From NCBI RefSeq assembly GCF_009695875.1, contig NZ_VUNC01000001.1:496001-560000 (forward strand): a stretch of DNA of 64,000 bases. The letters are read 5' to 3'. The DNA comes from Olsenella porci (GTDB taxonomy: Bacteria; Actinomycetota; Coriobacteriia; Coriobacteriales; Atopobiaceae). Numbering within the stretch: the first letter of the stretch is position 1; each line of letters opens with the position of its first letter. Below, piece after piece: positions 4,478 through 18,793 of the stretch. A program made the position numbers and the translations under genes. A model generated the notes under the pieces. The model worked only from the letters and a program-made list of their open reading frames with translations, was not told where the DNA came from and ran no database searches.

Positions 4478-4777
4478 ATGCGCTACAAGGGTGAGGAGGC
4501 CATCGGCCTCATCGAGACCATCGGAATGGTCCCCGCGCTCTATGCGGCCGATGCGATGCTCAAGGCTGGCGACACCGAGCTGATCAGCTACGAGAACATC
4601 GGCTCCACGCTGGTCACGATCATCGTCAAGGGTGACGTCGCGGCCTGCGAGGCGGCTGTGAAGGCAGGCATGGAGGCCGCATCCAGCATTGGGAAGCTCA
4701 CGGCCCACAACGTCATGAAGCGTCCCGTGCCGCCCATCGGCGATGTCGTATCCGTCCACGACGTCGACTACAACTAG
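4478..4777 (+). CDS. BMC-H microcompartment shell protein
   Basis: 99 residues with a single BMC fold (EEAIGLIETIGMVPALYAAD near the N-terminus), expected to form flat hexamers that tile the shell facets. The pore-loop segment reads NIGST (in SYENIGSTLVTI), different from the KIGSG loop of PduA and from the VGGG loops of the three BMC-H proteins further down. A C-terminal tail (about 15 residues, PPIGDVVSVHDVDYN) follows the fold. Preceded by a good ribosome site (GAGGGGG). It pairs with the adjacent BMC-H gene, 12 bp downstream. Confidence 0.93.
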   Translation: MRYKGEEAIGLIETIGMVPALYAADAMLKAGDTELISYENIGSTLVTIIVKGDVAACEAAVKAGMEAASSIGKLTAHNVMKRPVPPIGDVVSVHDVDYN

Positions 4778-4789
4778 GGAGGAGGAGCA

Positions 4790-5101
4790 ATGGCAAGCGA
4801 GGGCATGAACGCTCTGGGAGCCATCGAGACCTTTGGTCTCGTCTGGGTGCTTGAGGCCGGCGACGCCATGTGCAAGGCGGGCGACGTCGAGCTTATCGGC
4901 TACGAGAACACCGCCTCCGGCTACATCTCGATTCTGGTCCAGGGTGACGTCGCCGCATGCAAGGCTGCCGTCGAGGCGGGCGTCAAGGCTGTAGAGGCGC
5001 TGGGTGCCGAGGTCTACAGCTCCGTCGTGATCCCCAGGCCGCATCCCAGCCTCAAGAAGATCACCGATAAGTACACCGTCGAGAAGCTCCTTCCCTACTA
5101 A
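4790..5101 (+). CDS. BMC-H microcompartment shell protein with unusual pore loop
   Basis: 103-residue single-domain BMC protein (LGAIETFGLVWVLEAGDAMC) that should assemble as shell hexamers. The pore-loop position reads NTASG (GYENTASGYISI), with bulkier and more polar residues than the glycine-rich loops of the later BMC-H genes, so its pore probably has different selectivity. Ribosome site GGAGGAG lies just before ATG 4790. It follows the first BMC-H by 12 bp and precedes the degenerate aldehyde dehydrogenase by 11 bp. Confidence 0.93.
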   Translation: MASEGMNALGAIETFGLVWVLEAGDAMCKAGDVELIGYENTASGYISILVQGDVAACKAAVEAGVKAVEALGAEVYSSVVIPRPHPSLKKITDKYTVEKLLPY

Positions 5102-5112
5102 GGGGGTGTCCC

Positions 5113-6648
5113 ATGTCTCTCATCGATAACGACCTTCTCTCCATACAGGAGGCGCGCATCCTCCTGGAGCACGCGGCGGATTCCGCCGAGGTCCTCGAGG
5201 GGCTGCCGGGGACGCTTGTCGACGATTTCCTGACCCATCTCCGCGAGGGTCTCCTTCCCAAGGCGCAGGAGTACGCCGAGGAGGCGTTCGCGGAGAGCGA
5301 CTACTGCTCACCCGAGGACGAGGCCGGGCTCACCAAATGGGTCGTGACGGACCTCCTTGACGACGTCTGCTCCCAGACGCCCGTCCAGCGGATCGTGCCC
5401 TCGCGCAACGGGTCCGCCGAGGTATGCCTCTCCAAGGGCGTCGTGGTCTCGCTCCTTCCCGATTGGCTCGCGGTCCCGACCATGCTGAGCCAGCTCTTCA
5501 TGGCCGTTCGCTCCAAGAGCCCCATCGTCTTCTCTGCAACGGCCCGCATCCATGGCACGTGCGAGAAGGTCATGGGCGATGTGCTGCAGATCGCCGAGTT
5601 CTGCCACTATCCCACAGAGGCGATTGGCTTTCTCAGCATCTTCTGCCCGGAGGGGGAGGAGTGGGTCTGCTCCCAGCCCTGCGTGCGCGTGGTCATCGAC
5701 TCGCGCGAGGATGCAAGCGTGCGCTCCTTCGACGCGGTGGGTAGGGACGTGTACTACGCGACGCTGGGGAACAACCCGGTATTCGTGGAGTCTACGGCAG
5801 ACCTCGCCCTCTGCGCCGACGAGGTCGTGCTGGGGAAGTCCTACTGCTACGGCATGCTTCCCGGTGCCGAGCAGAGCGTGGTGGTCGAGAGGGCCGTGGA
5901 TGCCAGCTTCCAGACGGAGCTCCGTCGGCGTGGGTGTCACTTCCTCTCCGACGAGGAGGCCGACCGCCTGGTCCGCACGCTCTTCATGGACGACGGTCGC
6001 CCGTACCGTGAGCTCATCGGTAAGAGCGCCTTCGACCTGGCGCGTCGCGCCGACATCGTGGTACCCGAGACCACCAAGGTGCTTGTGGTGGAGAAGCCCT
6101 ACGTCAGCGACCGCAGCTTCTTCTCCAAGGCAAAGTACGGCCCGGTCCTCTCGTACTACGTGGAGGACAGCTGGCGCACCGCCTGTGAGAAGTGCATCGA
6201 GCTGATCCTGAACAGTGGGCACGGCAACGCGCTCGCGATCTTCTCCAAGGACCCCGAGGTCGTGAGGCAGTTCATCCTCAAGAAGCCCGTGGGAAGGGTG
6301 CTCGTCAACGTGAGTACCGGCCTGGGTTGCATCGGATGTCACAGCGACCTGCCCAAGACGCTCACCGTCACCGGGTGGGATTGCGCCACCACCTCCGAGC
6401 TCGGCGTCACCTATGGCGACTTCGTGCGTAGGCGCCAGGTTGGCATTGGCGGCAGCGCCTCCGCCAAGGATCTCCTGGAGCGTGCGAGCTCGTGCGACCA
6501 TACCCCGGTCGCGATCAAGGTTCACCTTCCCGAACCCAAGACGGTCCGGGAGGGCCGGGGCGAGGGATCCGACAGCGTTGGCAAGGAGCCGGGGGATTGG
6601 TTCTCCGGTGTGGTTGAGGCAATGAAGAACGATTCTGAAGAGGAGTGA
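5113..6648 (+). CDS. Degenerate acylating aldehyde dehydrogenase homologue lacking catalytic residues
   Basis: 511 residues, alignable over most of its length with the intact aldehyde dehydrogenase at 14293 in the same operon (both begin with L.SIQ.AR.L). Two essential positions are lost. Where the active enzyme has KTFDNGTIC (nucleophilic Cys) this one has KSYCYGMLP, with Pro250 in place of Cys. Where the active one has PSTNPTS (oxyanion Asn) this one has PDWLAVP, with Leu119. The N-terminal 60 residues and the charged C-terminal tail ([13 protein letters not shown]) are also distinct. It is probably not an enzyme but a structural, regulatory or encapsulation partner of the real dehydrogenase. 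The stop lies 2 bp before the cutC start. Confidence 0.85.
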
Positions 6649-6650
6649 GA

Positions 6651-9194
6651 ATGGACATTAAGGAGTTCGCAAAGGAGCTGTCCGAGGCTACCAAGGACAT
6701 GTCCGACGAGCAGCGTGCCACCGTCCGCAAGATGTTCGAGAAGGTGGCGGACCAGCTCGACGCCCCCGCCCCCAGCGCACACGCGGCCGTGAGCGTTGAC
6801 ACCCCCTACGACGTGCCCGACGGCCCCACCGACCGCCAGGTTCGCCTGAAGGACAACTTCCTCAAGCAGGTCCCGAGCATCACCATGTACCGCGCCCGTG
6901 CGGTCACCGAGATCATGAAGGCCAACCCCGGCATGCCCAAGATCGAGCTGCGCGCCAAGGCCTTCCGCCACTGCTGCGAGACCGCGCCCCTCGTCATCCA
7001 GGACGACGAGCTGGTCGTGGGCGCCCCCTGCGGCGCACCTCGCGCCGGCGCCTTCTCGCCCGACCTCGCCTGGCGCTGGCTGCGCGACGAGCTCGACACC
7101 ATCGGCGATCGTCCCCAGGACCCCTTCTACATCTCGGAGGAGGACAAGCAGTACTGCCGCGACGTCCTGTTCCCGTTCTGGGAGGGCAAGTCTCAGGACG
7201 AGATCTGCGAGGACCAGTATCGCGAGGCGGGCGTCTGGGAGCTCTCCGGCGAGTCCTTCGTCTCCGACTGCTCCTATCACGCAATGAGCGGTGGCGGCGA
7301 CTCCAACCCCGGCTACGACGTGATCCTCATGCACAAGGGCATGCTCGACATCCAGCAGGAGGCCAAGGATCACCTGGCAGAGCTTGACTACGCCAACCCC
7401 GACGACCTGGACAAGATCTACTTCTACAAGAGCGTCATCGACACCACCGAGGGTGTCATGATTTACTCCAAGCGCATGAGCGACCACGCCAGGGAGCTCG
7501 CCGCCAAGTGCGCTGACCCCAAGCGCAAGGCCGAGCTGGAGCAGATCGCCGACATCCTGGCCTACGTCCCGGCACACAAGCCCCGCACATTCTGGGAGGC
7601 CGTGCAGTCCGTCTTCACCATCGAGAGCCTGCTCCCGGTGGAGGAGAACCAGACCGGCATGTCGCTGGGCCGTGTGGACCAGTACATGTACCCGTTCTAC
7701 AAGGCTGACATCGAGGCTGGCCGCATCACCCCGTACCAGGCCTTCGACATCGCGGGCTGCATGCTCATCAAGATGAGCGAGATGATGTGGGTCACCTCCC
7801 GTGGCCAGTCCGAGTTCTTCGCCGGTTATCAGCCCTTCGTCAACATGACGCTGGGTGGCGTCACCCGTCAGGGCCACGACGCGACCAACGAGCTCACCTA
7901 CTTGCTCATGGACGCCGTCCGCCACGTCAAGGTGTACCAGCCCTCCATCGCCTGCCGCATCAACAACAAGTCCCCCGAGAAGTACATGCGCAAGATCGTC
8001 GACATCGTGCGCTCGGGCATGGGCTTCCCTGCGTGCCACTTTGACGACACGCACATCAAGATGATGCTCGCCAAGGGCGTGAGCGTCGAGGATGCCCGCG
8101 ACTACTGCATGATGGGCTGCGTCGAGCCCCAGAAGTCTGGTCGCCTGTATCAGTGGACCTCCACCTCATACACCCAGTGGCCCATCTGCATCGAGCTCAC
8201 CCTCAACCACGGCATCCCCCTGTGGTACGGCAAGCAGGTCACGCCTGACTACGGTGACCCTGCGCAGTACAAGACCTACGAGGAGTTTGACGCCGCGGTC
8301 AAGAAGACCATCTACTACGTGACCAAGTGGACTGATGTCGCAACCGTGATCTCGCAGCGCGTTGCCCGCGACGTCGCCCCCAAGCCTCTCATGTCCATCA
8401 TGTACGAGGGGTGCATGGAGCACGGCAAGGACGTCTCGGCCGGTGGCGCTATGTACAACTACGGCCCCGGCGTCGTGTGGACGGGCCTTGCGACCTACGC
8501 CGACTCCATGGCCGCCATCAAGAAGCTCGTCTTCGACGAGCACAAGTACACCCTCACCCAGCTTGCCGAGGGTCTCAAGGCCGACTTCGAGGGCTACGAG
8601 CAGATGCAGCAGGACTGCCTCAACGCCCCCAAGTATGGCAACGACGATGACTACGCCGACAGCATCGCGGCAGACATCATCGACTACACCGAGCACATCC
8701 ACCTGGACTTCAAGACGCTGTACTCGCACATGTCCACCGGTACGCTCTCCATCTCCAACAACACGCCCTTCGGCGAGATGACGGGCGCCACGGCGAACGG
8801 CCGCAAGGCCTGGACGCCGCTGTCCGACGGCATCAGCCCCACCCAGGGCGCCGACCACAGGGGACCCACTGCCATCATCAAGTCCGTCTCCAAGCTGTCG
8901 AACGATTCCATGAACATCGGCATGGTTCATAACTTCAAGCTCATGAGCGGCCTGCTCGACACCCCCGAGGGCGAGAACGGCCTCATCACGCTGCTGCGCA
9001 CCGCCTCGATGTTCGGCAATGGCGAGATGCAGTTCAACTACCTGGACAACAAGACGCTCATCGATGCCCAGAAGCACCCCGAGAAGCACCGCGACCTGGT
9101 CGTGCGCGTCGCCGGCTACTCCGCGTTCTTCAACGAGCTCTGCAAGGACGTCCAGGACGAGATCATCAGCCGCACCATGCTCACCAAGTTCTAA
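6651..9194 (+). CDS. cutC: Choline trimethylamine-lyase, glycyl radical enzyme
   Basis: 847 residues; cleaves choline to trimethylamine and acetaldehyde inside the microcompartment. Key residues, numbered from ATG 6651: thiyl Cys490 and general base Glu492 in GCVEPQKSG, and glycyl-radical Gly822 in RVAGYSAF. The choline-pocket residues of D. alaskensis CutC (Tyr208, Asp216, Phe395, Thr502, Tyr506) are all conserved here at +1: Tyr209, Asp217 ([10 protein letters not shown]), Phe396, Thr503 and Tyr507 ([11 protein letters not shown]). This separates it from propanediol, glycerol and isethionate lyases. The N-terminal 50 residues before the catalytic barrel are helical and Ala/Pro-rich, probably for encapsulation. 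ATG 6651 is chosen over an in-frame GTG at 6645, which overlaps the ribosome site GAAGAGGAG. Confidence 0.96.
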
Positions 9195-9263: not shown

Positions 9264-10208
9264 ATGAGCCATGAGCAGGGAAGCGTGGAGCGCAAGGCAC
9301 GCATCTTCAACCTTCAGAAGTACAACATGTACGACGGGCCCGGCGTGCGCTCCATGGCCTTCCTCAAGGGTTGTCCGCTCCGTTGCAAGTGGTGCTCGAA
9401 CCCAGAGAGCCAGCTGCGTGGCCACGAGGTCATGTTCAAGAGTGCCAATTGCGTAAACTGCGGGGCGTGCGTCGCCGTTTGCCCGGTGGGCGTGCACAAG
9501 ATGGTCGATGGCGAGCACGTGGTCGACCACAACGTGCAGTGCATAGGTTGCCGCCAGTGCGAGCAGGCATGCATGTATAGCGCCCTTCAGGTGATGGGTG
9601 AGGACCGCCCCATAGACGAGATCATCGAGTTCTTCGATGAGGACCAGGACTTCTATCGCATGTCCGGGGGCGGCATCACGCTCTCTGGCGGCGAGGTCCT
9701 GGCCCAACCCGAGGCGACCCTGTCGATCCTCATGGCATCGAAGGCGCGTGGGTACCATACCGCGATCGAAACCTGCGGGTACGCGCCCACCGAGACGATC
9801 ATGAAGGTTGCCCAGTACGTGGACCTCTTCCTGTTTGACATCAAGCAGATGGACCCCGTCAAGCACAAGTACTGGACGGGCGTCAACAACGAGCAGATCC
9901 TCTCCAACGTGAAGAACCTGCTCGAGAACGGCTACAACGTGAGGGTCCGTATGCCCCTGCTCAAGGGGGTCAACGACTCGAAGGAGGAAATCGACGCCGT
10001 CATCGAGTACTTCAAGCCCTACCGCTACCAGAAGAACTTCGATGGCGTGGACCTTCTCCCATACCACAAGCTGGGCGTCGGCAAATATGCGTCGCTCGGC
10101 AGGGACTACGAGATCAAGGACGACCCGTCGCTCTCCGAGGATGACCTCAACCGTGTCGAGGGGTGGATCAAGGACGCGGACTTCAAGGTCAACCTCGTCA
10201 GGCACTAG
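9264..10208 (+). CDS. cutD: Choline TMA-lyase activating enzyme, radical SAM
   Basis: 314 residues. Generates the Gly822 radical of CutC by reductive cleavage of S-adenosylmethionine, releasing methionine and 5'-deoxyadenosine. The radical-SAM cluster motif CPLRCKWC lies near residue 38. Two ferredoxin-type 4Fe-4S motifs follow (NCVNCGACVAVCPVG and QCIGCRQCEQAC), as usual for glycyl-radical activases, then the SAM-binding GGE-like segment SGGEVL. It follows cutC by 69 bp and is preceded by GGGAGAGG. The 5'-deoxyadenosine it releases may feed the aldolase/MtnA/phosphorylase operon at 50655-53222. Confidence 0.95.
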   Translation: MSHEQGSVERKARIFNLQKYNMYDGPGVRSMAFLKGCPLRCKWCSNPESQLRGHEVMFKSANCVNCGACVAVCPVGVHKMVDGEHVVDHNVQCIGCRQCEQACMYSALQVMGEDRPIDEIIEFFDEDQDFYRMSGGGITLSGGEVLAQPEATLSILMASKARGYHTAIETCGYAPTETIMKVAQYVDLFLFDIKQMDPVKHKYWTGVNNEQILSNVKNLLENGYNVRVRMPLLKGVNDSKEEIDAVIEYFKPYRYQKNFDGVDLLPYHKLGVGKYASLGRDYEIKDDPSLSEDDLNRVEGWIKDADFKVNLVRH

Positions 10209-12311: not shown

Positions 12312-13250
12312 ATGAAGAGGCTGATCAGCGCCCAGGACGTCATCGCGGCCGCAGAGCGTCACGAGAACCTCGTCGTGGACGGGAACACCATCGTGACCGC
12401 CCAGGCGCGTGACGTCGCCAAGGAGCGCGGGGTCCTCCTCGAGACGGCTTCCGCCGCCGCGAAGTCCGCACCTCACGCAGAGGCGGCGCCCGTGGCGGAG
12501 CACCACGAGGAGGCCCATCACGAGGAGCACCACGAGGAGGTGCACCACGAGGAGGCCAAGGCCGTGCAGCCCGCGCTCTCCGCGGACGAGCTGGAGCGCG
12601 TCATCTCCGCTGCCTTTGAGAAGGGCATCTGGACCAAGGAGGAGGTCGAGGCCCTCTTCAAGCCCAAGGCGGCGATTGACGCCAACATCGTTCCCGTGGG
12701 TGTCTCCGGCCGTCACATCCACCTCTCCCAGGAGCACCTGGAGCAGCTCTTTGGCACCGGTTACCAACTCACCCCGATCAAGGACCTGAGCCAGCCGGGG
12801 CAGTTTGCCGCCAAGGAGTGCGTCACGCTCGCCGGCCCCAAGGGAGTCATCCAGAAGGTGCGCGTTCTTGGCCCCGTGCGTCCCAAGACGCAGGTTGAGG
12901 TCCTCGCGGGCGATACCTTCAAGCTCGGCATCCCCCAGGCGATCAGGCTCTCGGGCCACCTGGAGGGCACTCCGGGCGTGACCGTGATCGGGCCCAAGGG
13001 CACGGTCGTCCTCGACGAGGGCGTCATCGTCGCCGCCCGGCACATTCACATGAACCCCGCGCAGGCCGCTGAGCGCGGCTTCCACGACGGCCAGGTCGTC
13101 TCTCTCAAGGTCGGCGGGGAGCGCGGCGGAATGCTCGACAACGTCATCATTCGCGTGACGGAGAGTGGCAACCTCGATTGTCACATCGACACCGAGGAGG
13201 CCAACGCCCTCCACATCAAGTGCGGCTCAACGGTTGAGGTAGTTAGGTAG
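12312..13250 (+). CDS. pduL: PduL-type phosphotransacylase with EutQ-like N-terminal module and His/Glu-rich linker
   Basis: 312 residues. Converts acetyl-CoA made by the aldehyde dehydrogenase to acetyl-phosphate, recycling CoA within the shell. The catalytic part (about residues 115-312) has the two PduL halves, each with its zinc motif (GRHIHLS and ARHIHMN). It is preceded by a 45-residue module (KRLISAQDVIAAAERHEN, then VTAQARDVAKERG) that resembles the N-terminus of EutQ. A linker at about residues 60-78 is built of HHEE-type repeats. Ordinary PduL is about 210 residues, so both additions are extra; the module is probably an encapsulation or docking segment. Preceded by AAAGGAGGATGGG. 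No acetate kinase gene is in the window. Confidence 0.93.
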   Translation: MKRLISAQDVIAAAERHENLVVDGNTIVTAQARDVAKERGVLLETASAAAKSAPHAEAAPVAEHHEEAHHEEHHEEVHHEEAKAVQPALSADELERVISAAFEKGIWTKEEVEALFKPKAAIDANIVPVGVSGRHIHLSQEHLEQLFGTGYQLTPIKDLSQPGQFAAKECVTLAGPKGVIQKVRVLGPVRPKTQVEVLAGDTFKLGIPQAIRLSGHLEGTPGVTVIGPKGTVVLDEGVIVAARHIHMNPAQAAERGFHDGQVVSLKVGGERGGMLDNVIIRVTESGNLDCHIDTEEANALHIKCGSTVEVVR

Positions 13251-13586: not shown

Positions 13587-14249
13587 ATGGCCGCGCAGAA
13601 GTCCGGGCAGGAGGGCGCTCCCAAGCGCACCTCCTCCCGCAGGGGGGCGGGCCAGGCGGCCGAGGCGGGCAAGCAATCTGCGGACGCCCCCAAGGCCACC
13701 CCGTCCAGGAGGGGCGCCAGCCGTCCCTCCACCCCCCGCAAGGAGCAGGCGACCGCAGCCGACAAGGCTAAGCCCGCGGCGGCGGTGGTCGCAAAGCCGG
13801 AGGCCAAGCCCGTCTCGGCCCCCAAGGCAAAGGCGGCGGAGCCCAAGCCGGCACCAACGCCCAAGGCAGCACCCGAAGCCCAGGAGCAGAAGGCTCCCGA
13901 GGCACCCAAGACGGAGGCCCAGCCCACCAAGGCGGAGCCCCACCCAACCAAGGAGGTAACCACAATGGCAAACGCCATCGAGGCACTCGGGATGATCGAG
14001 ACCAAGGGAATGGTCGGCGCCGTCGAGGCGGCCGATGCCATGGTCAAGGCCGCAAACGTCAGGCTCGTGGGCAAGGAGCGCGTGGGCGGCGGCCTGGTCA
14101 CCGTCTTCGTCCGCGGCGACGTGGGAGCGGTCAAGGCCGCCACGGACGCCGGCGCGGCTGCCGCGCAGCGCGTGGGCGAGCTCCTCTCCGTCCACGTGAT
14201 CCCGCGCCCGGACGGCATGGTCGAGTCGATCCTGCCCCACGCGGAGTAG
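13587..14249 (+). CDS. BMC-H shell protein with long basic Ala/Pro/Lys-rich N-terminal extension and a possible internal start
   Basis: 220 residues from ATG 13587. Residues 1-126 are low-complexity and basic (Lys, Arg, Ala, Pro, Glu; no predicted fold). Residues 127-220 form a canonical BMC-H domain nearly identical to the preceding gene. A strong ribosome site (AAGGAGGT, 13950-13957) sits just before an in-frame ATG at 13965, exactly where the BMC domain begins. The upstream ATG has only a weak site. Two products are therefore likely: a plain 94-residue shell protein and a smaller amount of an extended form carrying a disordered tail, perhaps to tether cargo or nucleic acid. The extension shows GC-rich repetitive codon use. 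Confidence 0.85.
13950..13967 (+). promoter_or_regulatory. Strong internal ribosome-binding site and start codon
   Basis: AAGGAGGT followed by 7 bases and ATG (13965), in frame inside the extended BMC-H gene. It is the best Shine-Dalgarno match near either BMC-H start and decides that a short shell protein is probably made from the same message. Confidence 0.65.
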
Positions 14250-14292: not shown

Positions 14293-15963
14293 ATGATGCA
14301 GGAATTCGATTACGATCTCCAGAGCATTCAGGCTGCGCGTGACCTGGCTCGCAAGGGACAGGTTGCCGCCAACCAGATTGCCAACTACAGCGTCGAGCAG
14401 ATCGACCGCATCCTCCGCTCCATGGTCGAGGTCGCGGAGAAGAACGCCGAGAAGCTTGCACAGATGGCCGTCGAAGAGACCACCTTTGGCAACGTCCACG
14501 ACAAGATTTACAAGAACCACATGGCCTCCGGCCTGCTCTACGAGCAGATCAAGGACAAGAAGACCATTGGCGTCATTGACGTGGACGAGAAGAACCAGGT
14601 CATCACCATCGCCGAGCCCGTCGGCCTGGTCATGGGCATCGTGCCCTCCACCAACCCGACCTCGACGGTGCTCTACAAGTCGATGATCGCACTCAAGTCG
14701 CGCAACGCCATCGTCTTCTCCCCGCACCCCAAGGCCGCCAAGTGCACCAACCTCGCCATCAAGCTCATGAACGACGCCGCCGTCGCCGCGGGTGCGCCCG
14801 AGAACATCATCCAGGGCATCTCGATGGCGACCATCGCCGCCACCAACGAGCTCATGCACGCGCCCGAGGTCAAGATGATCATCGCCACCGGTGGCCCCGG
14901 CATGGTCAAGGCCGCCTACAGCTCGGGCAAGCCCGCCCTGGGCGTCGGCGCCGGCAACTCGCCCTCGTACATCGAGCGCACCGCCAACGTGAAGCAGGCC
15001 GTCCGCCAGATCGTCGCCTCCAAGACCTTTGACAACGGCACCATCTGCGCGTCCGAACAGAGCGTCATCTGCGAGACCTGCAACCACGACGAGGTCGTCG
15101 CCGAGTTCAAGAAGCAGGGTGGCTACTTCATGTCCGAGGAGGAGTGCGCCAAGGTCTGCAAGATCCTGTTCCGCAACGGCCACTCCATGAGCCCCAACTT
15201 CGTGGGTCACGCCGCACTCGACATCGCCAAGGCAGCCGGCATCAGCGTTCCCGCCGACACCAAGATCCTCATTGGCGAGCAGCACGGCGTTGGTCCCGAG
15301 TGGCCCCTCTCCTACGAGAAGCTCACTACCGTCCTCGCGTTCTACACCGTCGCCGACTGGCATGAGGCATGCGACCTCTCCATCGCACTCCTCCAGAATG
15401 GCATCGGCCACACCATGAACATCCACACCGAGGACAAGGAGATCGTCCGCAAGTTCTCCGTCAAGCCCGCCTCCCGCATCCTCATCAACACGGGCGGAAC
15501 CCAGGGCGGCACGGGCCTCTCCACCGGCCTCGAGGTCGCGCTCACGCTGGGTTGCGGCACCTGGGGCGGCAGCTCGGTCTCCGAGAACGTTGGCCCCCAG
15601 CACCTCATCAACATCAAGCGCGTCGTCAACGGCCTGGTGGAGCCCGATGAGGTCGCCGCGAAGGACGAGACCTTCGCCAAGTGGCACCCCGAGCTCGCCG
15701 CGCAGTACGGCTGCGCCCCCCACGCCGAGGGCGGCTGCGGCTGCTCCGAGGCGCACTGCGAGCCCGCGCACGAGACCCAGGAGACGGGCATCGAGATGCC
15801 CGTGGGTCACGGCACCAGCGGCATCAGCTACTCCGTGGGCTGCAACTGCTGCGGTGGCCAGACCGTCACTCAGGAGGACCTGCAGCACCCCAGCGACGCT
15901 ATCGACGCCGAGGAGCTCAAGAAGATGGTCAACGAGCTCGTCGCCGCGTTCCGTGGCGAGTAG
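14293..15963 (+). CDS. cutF: CoA-acylating acetaldehyde dehydrogenase with Cys-rich C-terminal tail
   Basis: 556 residues. Oxidises the acetaldehyde released by CutC to acetyl-CoA with NAD+. The active-site cysteine is Cys252 in DNGTICASEQS; the oxyanion asparagine is Asn121 in VPSTNPTS; the cofactor region includes ATGGPGMVKAAYSSGKP. EutE/PduP enzymes are about 460-470 residues. Here an 86-residue tail (471-556) follows, with seven cysteines (474, 482, 484, 489, 517, 519, 520) and ending in an amphipathic helix (DAEELKKMVNELVAAF) typical of encapsulation peptides. The Cys-rich insert may bind metal or form disulfides. Either of two adjacent ATGs (14293, 14296) could be the start. Confidence 0.93.
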   Translation: MMQEFDYDLQSIQAARDLARKGQVAANQIANYSVEQIDRILRSMVEVAEKNAEKLAQMAVEETTFGNVHDKIYKNHMASGLLYEQIKDKKTIGVIDVDEKNQVITIAEPVGLVMGIVPSTNPTSTVLYKSMIALKSRNAIVFSPHPKAAKCTNLAIKLMNDAAVAAGAPENIIQGISMATIAATNELMHAPEVKMIIATGGPGMVKAAYSSGKPALGVGAGNSPSYIERTANVKQAVRQIVASKTFDNGTICASEQSVICETCNHDEVVAEFKKQGGYFMSEEECAKVCKILFRNGHSMSPNFVGHAALDIAKAAGISVPADTKILIGEQHGVGPEWPLSYEKLTTVLAFYTVADWHEACDLSIALLQNGIGHTMNIHTEDKEIVRKFSVKPASRILINTGGTQGGTGLSTGLEVALTLGCGTWGGSSVSENVGPQHLINIKRVVNGLVEPDEVAAKDETFAKWHPELAAQYGCAPHAEGGCGCSEAHCEPAHETQETGIEMPVGHGTSGISYSVGCNCCGGQTVTQEDLQHPSDAIDAEELKKMVNELVAAFRGE

Positions 15964-16295: not shown

Positions 16296-17093
16296 TTGGA
16301 TCTCTCGGTCTTCTACACCGAGCTTGACCGTCTGTACGGCGAGCCGGGGTCGGACGTCGCGGGCTTCCTTCGGGAGGCCCTGCGGCGCGCCCGGCTCGCC
16401 GGGGACGGGCGGGGGGTCGCTGCCGCGGCCAACGAGCTCGAGAGCGTCCTGCGCCTCCGTGGCGAGCTGGACGAGGCCGAGGCGCTGTGCGAGGAGGTCC
16501 TTCGCGTGCTGGGGCGCGAGGGTGCCGGGGACGACGAGAGGGCGCGTGCCCTCATCAACCTTGGCGACGTCTACGTTGCCCAGGGGCGCTACGCCACTGC
16601 AGTCGATGCCTTCGACCGTGCCGAGGCGCTCCTGGGGAGCGGAGACGCCCACCCCTACGAGGTGAGCGCGATCTGCAACAACCGCAGCAGTGCGTATCGC
16701 GGGCTCGGGCGCTTTGCCGATGCTCGCTCGGACCTCAGGCGGGCGGGGCGGCTCCTGGAGCGCGTCCCGGGCTCCGAGGGAAGGCGGGCGACCAACGCGA
16801 TCAACCTCGCGCAGGTCCTTTTGGACGAGGGACGCGTGGAGGAGGCCGCCGAGGCCATCGGGCCCGCTCTTGAGGCGTTCCGTACCCTCGGCGGAGGACG
16901 CGACGTCCACAGGCCCCACGCCCTGGCGACCGCGGCGCAGATCGCCTACCTGCGCGGGGACTACGCGGAGGCGGCGCGTCTCTACCGCGAGGCCGCGGGC
17001 GTGATGCGCGACAAGCTCGGCGACGCCCCCAACGTAGGCGCCCTGGAGGCATCCGCGGCGCGCATGGAGGGCCTGGCGGCAGCCGGCGCGTAA
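16296..17093 (+). CDS. Tetratricopeptide-repeat protein
   Basis: 265 residues with several TPR-like helix pairs (for example ARALINLGDVYVAQGRYATA, then NNRSSAYRGLGRFADARSDL, then ATAAQIAYLRGDYAEAARLY). No signal peptide or membrane segment, so it is a cytosolic protein-interaction scaffold. The start is TTG 16296, 4 bp after a shell gene, which ties it to the microcompartment operon. It is the first of three consecutive genes (TPR, DUF4037, DUF4125) whose role is not known to me. The partner could be a microcompartment protein or the DUF4037 protein that follows. Confidence 0.75.
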   Translation: MDLSVFYTELDRLYGEPGSDVAGFLREALRRARLAGDGRGVAAAANELESVLRLRGELDEAEALCEEVLRVLGREGAGDDERARALINLGDVYVAQGRYATAVDAFDRAEALLGSGDAHPYEVSAICNNRSSAYRGLGRFADARSDLRRAGRLLERVPGSEGRRATNAINLAQVLLDEGRVEEAAEAIGPALEAFRTLGGGRDVHRPHALATAAQIAYLRGDYAEAARLYREAAGVMRDKLGDAPNVGALEASAARMEGLAAAGA

Positions 17094-17144
17094 GGGTCCC
17101 ACGGAGCCTTCGTGGGATGGTGAGAGAAGATCGGGAGGTGCGGC

Positions 17145-18077
17145 ATGAGGGGCATGGAGCTGGCAAGGCGGTACTTCGGGGCCTACGAGCCCACCCTCGT
17201 GTTTGGGCTCCCGTACTCCGTGGAGCGGAGGCTGGCCTTTGGCCTCGTCGGCCCCGGCTCCGAGTGCCTTGGATTTGACGACGAAGCCTCGCAGGACCAC
17301 GACTTTGGCCCCGGCTTCTGCGTGTGGGTCCCGCGTGAGCTCTATGCCGACTGGGGAGAGGAACTCGCGCGCCGCTACGACGCGCTCCCCAAGGAGTTCA
17401 TGGGCAAGAGGCGCGTCGAGACCGCCCTCGCGGGCCAGCGCGTCGGGGTGTTCGAGACCGAATCGTTCTATCGCACGTTCACCGGCTTGGAGCGCGAGCC
17501 CCAGGGTGTGGCGGAGTGGCTCCGCATCCCCGAGCAGTTCCTGGCCACCGTCACCGACGGCGAGGTCTTCAGCGACGCGAGCGGGCAGTTCTCCCGCATG
17601 CGTCGTGCGCTCCAGGGCTTCTATCCCCAGGACGTGGTGAGGAAGAAGGTCGCGGCCAACATGGCGGTCATGGCCCAGTCGGGCCAGTACAACCTCTGGC
17701 GCTGCCTGCGCAGGGGGGACGTAGTCGCTGCCGGCACCGCTCGCACCGAGTTCCTGCAGGCTTCCATGGCGGCGCTGCACCTGCTGTCTGGAACATACAT
17801 GCCGTTCTACAAGTGGTCGTTCCGCTCGCTGTCCGATCGCGCCCATGTGCCCGAGCCCATCTGCGCGCTCGTCTCCCGTATCGCGGCCGCTCCGGTGGCG
17901 GATGTGGCGCAGACAGACGTCGAGGCCCTGTGCGGCGTGGTCCTCGCGACCGTGCAGGCACTGGGATGGGCCGCCGGGGACTCCGACTTCCTGCTCGATG
18001 CCGCGACGGCCGCGTGGCAGGGCATCCCCAACGACTACCTCAGGGAGCGGCCGCTCAACGAGGGGGCGTATCGCTGA
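17145..18077 (+). CDS. DUF4037 nucleotidyltransferase-fold protein
   Basis: 310 residues, matching the DUF4037 family. Near the N-terminus it shows a nucleotidyltransferase-like signature: Gly38-Ser39 followed by Asp51-His52-Asp53 (GPGSECLGFDDEASQDHDFG). That fits the GS...DxD metal-binding pattern of the pol-beta superfamily. The remaining 250 residues are mostly helical. Possible activities include nucleotidylation of a protein or small molecule; the substrate is unknown. ATG 17145 is used; ATG 17154 is an alternative. The stop overlaps the next start (TGATG), so the two proteins are probably made in equal amounts. Confidence 0.75.
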   Translation: MRGMELARRYFGAYEPTLVFGLPYSVERRLAFGLVGPGSECLGFDDEASQDHDFGPGFCVWVPRELYADWGEELARRYDALPKEFMGKRRVETALAGQRVGVFETESFYRTFTGLEREPQGVAEWLRIPEQFLATVTDGEVFSDASGQFSRMRRALQGFYPQDVVRKKVAANMAVMAQSGQYNLWRCLRRGDVVAAGTARTEFLQASMAALHLLSGTYMPFYKWSFRSLSDRAHVPEPICALVSRIAAAPVADVAQTDVEALCGVVLATVQALGWAAGDSDFLLDAATAAWQGIPNDYLRERPLNEGAYR

Positions 18078-18793
18078 TGGGCACCTGCGCTTGCACCTGC
18101 CGTGAGGGCTCCGGCTCCTACGGCCGCCGCCTGGAGCGTCGCAGGGCGATGGATGCGCTCTTCTCCGCGCCCGCCGTCGTGGACGTGATGGCGGGGGAAG
18201 GGCTTGGCGAGTCTGGCCGCGCCGACCTCCGGAGGCTCGTGGGGCTGGAGTGGGAGCAGTTCGACGCCGTCCTGGGCATGAACGGACGTGCCGGCTGCCA
18301 GGACGACCTCCGCTCGTTCCTCTCGTACCGCTGCGCCCAGTACCTGGCCTTTCCGCACCCCCTCATCCCCCTGGTGCTGGGGGAGTACGTGGAGGCAGAG
18401 CGCACGGGCAGAAACCTCGTGGAGGAGAAGTACGCGCGCATGATGGCCGTGACCGATCCCGACGGCTACCAGCGCGACTGGGCGCGTAGGCTCGGCACCC
18501 CCTCTCCCGTGCGGGCAGCGGCGCTGCGTCAGATTCGTGCGCTCCTTTCGCCGGCCCTCGAGTCGGCCGCCCGCGAGCTGCCGCAGTCCCATCGGCATGC
18601 CCGGCCCGACGAGTCGGTGCCCGGCAGGGTCTCGGCGCTCGACTACTTCGAGGCCGAGGTGGCCGGCTATTCGCTGGGAACGCTGTTCGCCCTCAGGGAC
18701 GCGCTGGGGGAGCAGCTGAAGCACACCAACCCAATTGCCCTGAGCTACGTCCTGGCGGCGCGTCTCGGTAAGGCTACGGAGGCGATATCTTGA
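18077..18793 (+). CDS. DUF4125 family protein
   Basis: 238 residues from ATG 18077, which overlaps the DUF4037 stop. Longer upstream readings in this frame run through the DUF4037 gene and are not coding. The sequence matches my recollection of DUF4125 (MDALFSAPAVVDVMAGEGLG, EWEQFDAVLGMNGRAGCQDD, EKYARMMAVTDP). It has a short Cys-containing N-terminus (GTCACTC) and is otherwise helical and soluble. DUF4125 commonly travels with DUF4037, so the two probably act together. Its stop overlaps the TTG start of the MerR regulator by 4 bp. Function unknown. Confidence 0.72.
   Translation: MGTCACTCREGSGSYGRRLERRRAMDALFSAPAVVDVMAGEGLGESGRADLRRLVGLEWEQFDAVLGMNGRAGCQDDLRSFLSYRCAQYLAFPHPLIPLVLGEYVEAERTGRNLVEEKYARMMAVTDPDGYQRDWARRLGTPSPVRAAALRQIRALLSPALESAARELPQSHRHARPDESVPGRVSALDYFEAEVAGYSLGTLFALRDALGEQLKHTNPIALSYVLAARLGKATEAIS

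Follow-up and report, generated by a model that had tools for sequence, protein, structure and literature searches.

In every GRM1 (type I) choline microcompartment locus with two aldehyde dehydrogenases (AldDHs), one AldDH was found to have Ser or Pro in place of its catalytic Cys, and a scaffold or regulatory role was suggested for this Cys-less protein (Axen et al. 2014, PMC4207490). The GRM1 carriers named there include Olsenella uli, which is closely related to the organism considered here. A putatively inactive second copy was later marked in both GRM1A and GRM1B (Sutter et al. 2021, PMC8217296), and a CoA-acylating aldehyde dehydrogenase (ALDH) named CutB appears beside CutF (PMC6620236). 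The existence of dead ALDH copies in GRM1 loci is therefore already known from 2014 and 2021; the literature searched, whose coverage left out most subscription papers, contained no experimental work on the inactive second AldDH. In Clostridium ljungdahlii, an ALDH gene in the position of cutB is up by 7.2 log2 on choline, and the GRE1 gene alongside by 7.9 (PMC12016505), the likeness of this ALDH to CutB being one of gene position. In the GRM2 (type II) systems, the long CutC has a degenerate N-terminal domain that is required for the entry of CutF into particles, and CutF cross-links full-length CutC (PMC6971018). Dedicated adaptor proteins were reported to be lacking in metabolosomes (PMC6971018).

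The locus analyzed in this study lies in a stretch of 64,000 nucleotides of the Olsenella porci genome (contig NZ_VUNC01000001.1, positions 496,001 to 560,000), hereafter the window; all coordinates are window positions unless another locus is named, and all genes and sites described with coordinates in cutB, cutC, cutD, cutF, and the adjoining shell gene pair are on the forward strand. The locus is of the GRM1 type, encoding a CutC of about 848 aa that lacks the N-terminal extension of about 350 aa, together with cutD, PduL, and shell genes. The cutC gene (6651-9194) encodes the short (GRM1) form of choline trimethylamine-lyase, with the PFL-like and Gly_radical domains of Pfam and a TIGR04394 score of 1641.8 bits (cut-off 1050). 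It is followed by cutD (9264-10208), encoding the activating enzyme, which has a Radical_SAM Pfam match and 52% identity to the annotated Enterococcus cutD. The cutF gene (14293-15963) encodes an intact acetylating acetaldehyde dehydrogenase scoring 718 bits against TIGR02518, above the cut-off, in which N121, G200-G201, C252, E342, and H373-T374 are all present. The subject of this analysis is cutB (5113-6648), a 511-aa acylating-ALDH paralogue that, judging by alignments, an AlphaFold model, and a TIGR02518 score below the cut-off, is catalytically dead. Two BMC shell genes (4478-5101) lie immediately 5' of cutB, and the same order, with cutB 3' of two BMC genes and next to cutC, is found in the plasmid locus of Enterococcus raffinosus.

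CutB is the inactive second aldehyde dehydrogenase of the GRM1 choline microcompartment. It follows the published rule of Cys replacement, here by Pro250, and does not differ in kind from the second AldDH of GRM1, GRM1A, and GRM1B loci: the locus type is the same, there are two AldDHs, and in one of them the Cys is replaced. What the present analysis adds to the published picture is the loss of the Asn, Glu, His, Thr, and NAD-loop residues in Coriobacteriia, the one-for-one co-occurrence with CutC, the coupled translation, a selection estimate, and a structural model for CutB.

The original prediction that CutB aligns with the dehydrogenase at 14293 over hundreds of residues was borne out by BLASTP (26% identity over 403 residues, E 4e-41) and by profile-profile alignment (447 columns, probability 100, E 7e-73). 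The solved structures closest to CutB by sequence are the acetylating ALDHs 3K9D and 5J78. CutB has no Pfam match, and its score against the EutE-type NCBIfam family TIGR02518 is 211.7 bits, well below both the cut-off of 620.1 and the score of CutF. An AlphaFold2 run with 13 sequences gave a pLDDT of 54; after addition of five AdhE-type sequences from viral contigs, the resulting 18-sequence model, used here, had a mean pLDDT of 79 and a pTM of 0.82. Its top PDB match is the acetylating ALDH 5J7I (TM-score 0.92), and, as modelled, CutB is shown to keep the acylating-ALDH fold. A chance alignment of CutB with ALDHs is ruled out by the agreement of the BLASTP, profile-profile, and structure matches. 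CutB shares with the EutE/CutF-type ALDHs (TIGR02518; 5J7I, 3K9D) a fold of about 445 residues (TM-score 0.91-0.92), the N-terminal DxDLxSIQ helix, and the C-terminal tail, but differs from them by the lost catalytic residues and NAD Gly-Gly and by its low family score. The human pseudoenzyme ALDH16A1 likewise has an ALDH fold without catalytic residues (PMC10650815), but belongs to an unrelated lineage and context with no microcompartment. Scans of viral contigs with CutB queries found nothing, and neither did three more scans made to deepen the alignment; phages yielded just ordinary ALDH or AdhE matches. One further match, with 28% identity, in genome G040 turned out to be an ordinary intact ALDH.

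Two substitutions had been noted previously, that of the nucleophilic Cys by Pro250 and that of the oxyanion Asn by Leu119, and both are exact in the alignment with CutF. Pro250 (codon 5860-5862) stands at the position of Cys252, where CutF has GTICASEQSV, and the EQSV motif firmly fixes the register of this column. Leu119 (5467-5469) replaces Asn121 (LLPDWLAV versus IVPSTNPT). Several other losses had been overlooked: Glu342 is replaced by Ala340 (6130-6132), His373 by Asn372 and Thr374 by Ala373 (6226-6231), and Gly200-Gly201 of the NAD loop by Arg198-Glu199 (5704-5709), the segment next to the latter being modelled as coil up to residue 211. By residue spacing rather than direct alignment, the residues concerned correspond to N138, C269, E357, and H387 of Cphy1178 (PMC4762007), the Glu and His columns being those of E357 and H387, and to Cys330, Glu419, and His449-Thr450 of the R. 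palustris enzyme (PMC5311937).

The residue alignment comprised 13 CutB proteins (12 coriobacterial and one from Enterococcus), 11 CutF proteins, and 10 other ALDHs; the sequence of locus L102 (genome G577) was left out of the counts. All 12 coriobacterial CutB have Leu for Asn, Pro for Cys, Asn-Ala for His-Thr, and Arg-Glu for Gly-Gly, and the Glu is replaced by Ala in 11 of them and by Thr in one. The losses agree in a thirteenth coriobacterial CutB, added afterwards. All 11 CutF are intact at the catalytic positions. The catalytic Cys column holds Pro in 13/13 CutB and Cys in 21/21 other aligned ALDHs, whereas the Asn is lost in the coriobacterial proteins and kept in E. raffinosus CutB, which has the Cys to Pro and Glu to Ala replacements and retains the Asn, His, and Thr. 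Of the two losses noted originally, that of the Asn does not generalise and is coriobacterial. The pseudoenzyme assignment, already published (PMC4207490, PMC8217296), is well supported by these residue losses as read from the alignments.

The fold is kept and several Cys residues are conserved in coriobacterial CutB, so one could imagine an enzyme with some other chemistry, for instance one that uses a different Cys or whose former pocket now carries out a non-oxidative reaction. We consider this very improbable: in Coriobacteriia the nucleophile, the oxyanion Asn, the Glu, the His, and the NAD loop are all lost, and there is no active-site Cys column in common with Enterococcus. No other Cys occupies the catalytic position. 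The nearest one, Cys245, was considered as a replacement nucleophile and rejected, since it is absent from the Enterococcus CutB.

The cutB gene is closely tied to cutC. Its stop codon (6646-6648) is followed by the cutC ATG at 6651, which gives the 2-bp gap originally described, and AGGAG (6641-6645), read from the sequence as the apparent Shine-Dalgarno site of cutC, lies within the final cutB codons, 5 nt ahead of the ATG. In several relatives, as in the window, the cutC ribosome-binding site overlaps the end of the cutB coding sequence; in others it is found just past the stop codon. Because of this overlap, the site at least partly dictates the Glu residues with which the window CutB ends. 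The gap and the site within cutB support probable coupled translation of the two genes and nothing beyond it; accordingly, of the suggestion that CutB controls stoichiometry, the coupling is supported and the control itself is not.

Among 399 Coriobacteriales genomes, CutB is present in 14, CutC scores above the cut-off in 14, and these are the same 14 genomes, none having CutB without cutC. The pairwise dN/dS of cutB against the window gene is 0.13-0.32, with a median of 0.20 over all pairs, these values being approximate because dS is high for some pairs. In the same genomes, the dN of CutB is 1.54 times that of CutF. Given that the substitutions are uniform in coriobacterial CutB and that the gene is under purifying selection, the losses are not due to chance. 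One might still see CutB as a functionless, decaying remnant of a gene duplication, as its catalysis is gone and it is the fastest-changing core protein between phyla: the window and Enterococcus proteins are about 31% identical for CutB, 64% for CutF, and 77% for CutC. This reading is scarcely credible in view of the dN/dS of about 0.2, the presence of the gene in 14/14 cutC genomes and in none lacking cutC, and the single clade that includes Enterococcus. A pseudogene is ruled out by the same dN/dS and co-occurrence.

In the tree, all 13 CutB sequences fall on one side of a branch with support 100/99, and their branches are very long; the single-clade result rests on these long branches and on one non-actinobacterial CutB, that of E. 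raffinosus. With this one sequence representing the other phylum, orthology of CutB across phyla is indicated by the tree branch, the invariant columns, and the gene order shared with Enterococcus. If the CutB proteins have a single origin, the nucleophile and the Glu would have been lost before the lineages split, and the remaining residues later in the actinobacterial line.

The identity profile along CutB differs from that along CutF. The N-terminal 20 residues (5113-5172) are the most conserved stretch, with a mean pairwise identity of 0.93 (0.84 in CutF), and are 65% identical between the window and Enterococcus proteins against about 30% for the whole protein. Identity is also high in the catalytic-domain core (residues 341-400, 0.87-0.91) and in the C-terminal oligomerisation strand (411-446, 0.84). 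By contrast, residues 201-220 have an identity of 0.55 among CutB versus 0.99 among CutF, and residues 197-211, right after the former Gly-Gly, are hypervariable and coil in the AlphaFold2 model. The oligomerisation hairpin 93-108 is at 0.53 in CutB versus 0.80 in CutF. There are 22 invariant columns specific to CutB. With residues 201-220 low and the N-terminus, core, and C-terminal strand high, constraint is gone from cofactor binding and persists in the N-terminal helix, in the core of the catalytic domain, and in the C-terminal strand.

This profile bears on the proposal that CutB is a hetero-oligomer partner of CutF, that is, a regulatory subunit forming mixed ALDH dimers or tetramers that tune the activity or location of CutF. 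The full ALDH fold and the conserved C-terminal strand would suit such a subunit, and an intact ALDH paralogue is present in each examined GRM1 locus for which both regions were available, in the window as the 14293-15963 protein with C252, N121, E342, and H373. The proposal is nevertheless weakened by the poorly conserved hairpin 93-108 and the variable coil 197-211. Further, cutB adjoins cutC and not cutF, and CutB has diverged between the window and Enterococcus far more than CutF. A canonical CutB-CutF heteromer is thus possible but not favoured, and we regard the regulatory-subunit role as unlikely.

The strong constraint on the catalytic-domain core despite the lost catalysis could also mean that the pocket, now remodelled, has choline, acetaldehyde, acetyl-CoA, or a shell protein as its ligand, CutB serving as a sensor or buffer that signals the filling of the compartment. 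Cys245, unique to and conserved in coriobacterial CutB, would agree with such a role, but it is missing in the Enterococcus orthologue, and no new conserved motif is recognisable as a ligand site. We hold this role to be quite unlikely, while noting that a regulatory or ligand-binding function fits most of the facts cited below for an adaptor.

The C-terminal tail (6598-6645) follows a variable linker of 43-55 aa (31% identity in the linker region), an architecture resembling that of encapsulation peptides. The first nine residues of this WFSGVV-type tail have 62% mean pairwise identity, and a short helix is modelled at 497-504 with low confidence. The hydrophobic moment of 0.51 is not above background and was discarded as proof of an encapsulation peptide.

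Our preferred reading, to which we assign slightly less than an even chance, is that CutB is a non-catalytic core-assembly adaptor. CutB would be made together with CutC, with translation in step; it would dock on CutC and/or CutF via the conserved N-terminal helix, catalytic-domain core, and C-terminal oligomerisation strand; and its tail on the flexible linker would hold the core together or fasten it to the shell. In GRM1, CutB may thereby do what the long CutC of GRM2 achieves by its degenerate N-terminal domain. This model is drawn from the comparison of the two types: the GRM1 CutC lacks the N-terminal domain but has CutB adjacent, and in GRM2 that domain is needed for encapsulation of CutF. 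The structural or cargo-docking role originally proposed is thus plausible and becomes the leading view, on the indirect evidence of the strict co-occurrence with CutC, the coupled translation, the linker and tail, and the complementarity with type II. Against an adaptor stand the ordinary hydrophobic moment of the tail and the weakly conserved oligomerisation hairpin. The remaining probability falls to roles that we have not thought of.

The evidence for the complementarity consists of two type II loci, from Proteus and Klebsiella, and of published work. Both loci encode a long CutC (that of Klebsiella has 1128 aa) and contain one ALDH and no CutB; the additional N-terminal portion of CutC in Proteus aligns with residues 154-453 of the CutC encoded in the window at 29% identity. 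CutB and the GRM2 domain are alike as dead copies of a core enzyme tied to CutC (PMC6971018, PMC6325248), but the GRM2 domain is of the PFL type and fused to CutC, whereas CutB is a separate protein with the ALDH fold, so the likeness is functional and hypothetical. It is conceivable, though we think it doubtful, that types I and II each turned a dead core-enzyme copy into a CutC-linked adaptor, a free pseudo-ALDH in GRM1 and a fused pseudo-PFL in GRM2; CutB would in that case be a dedicated metabolosome adaptor protein.

Whatever its exact function, the role of CutB is narrowed: it is under selection, inseparable from CutC in Coriobacteriales, and not kept for catalysis or cofactor binding, and type II loci without it carry a different dead domain. 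If the adaptor reading is true, CutB would explain the packing of the GRM1 core and could provide a target against gut trimethylamine and a part for synthetic compartments.

Several additional observations were made in the compared loci. The E. raffinosus locus (NZ_CP081847.1) is a complete GRM1 choline operon on a plasmid of about 1 Mb; one of its shell proteins is 90% identical to that of the window, and its cutC is the 77% identical gene mentioned above. This likeness fits a published account in which Actinobacteria obtained cut genes from Firmicutes by horizontal transfer (PMC6620236). In one more genome, G028 (locus L092, about 6330-9000), which is not among the 14, the cut operon is collapsed: just the C-terminal 26 residues of CutB remain, beside a transposase-like sequence, cutC is broken, and there is a fusion involving the end of eutP, the operon being lost as a whole. 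Genome G024 (locus L106, 7104-9332), which has a single CutB, encodes a second CutC-like glycyl radical enzyme beyond eutP, where its cut operon ends; this enzyme shares 55% identity with the window CutC and scores above the CutC family cut-off.

In the window, the PduL-type phosphotransacylase (12312-13250) has an N-terminal extension of about 125 residues with a His/Glu-rich run (HHEEAHHEEHHEEVHHEEA). In a BMC shell ORF (13587-14249), about 125 Lys/Ala/Pro-rich residues precede the BMC domain; since relatives have sequence that aligns with part of this extension, it may be translated, or the true start may be the internal ATG. Finally, the cut operon contains consecutive genes for TPR, DUF4037, and DUF4125 proteins (16296-18793), flanked by a shell gene and the MerR regulator gene. 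Homologues of the TPR and/or DUF4037 proteins are absent from the Enterococcus locus and present in four coriobacterial loci (L033, L089, L090, and L091); one paper linking DUF4037 and microcompartments was found, on limonene degradation.
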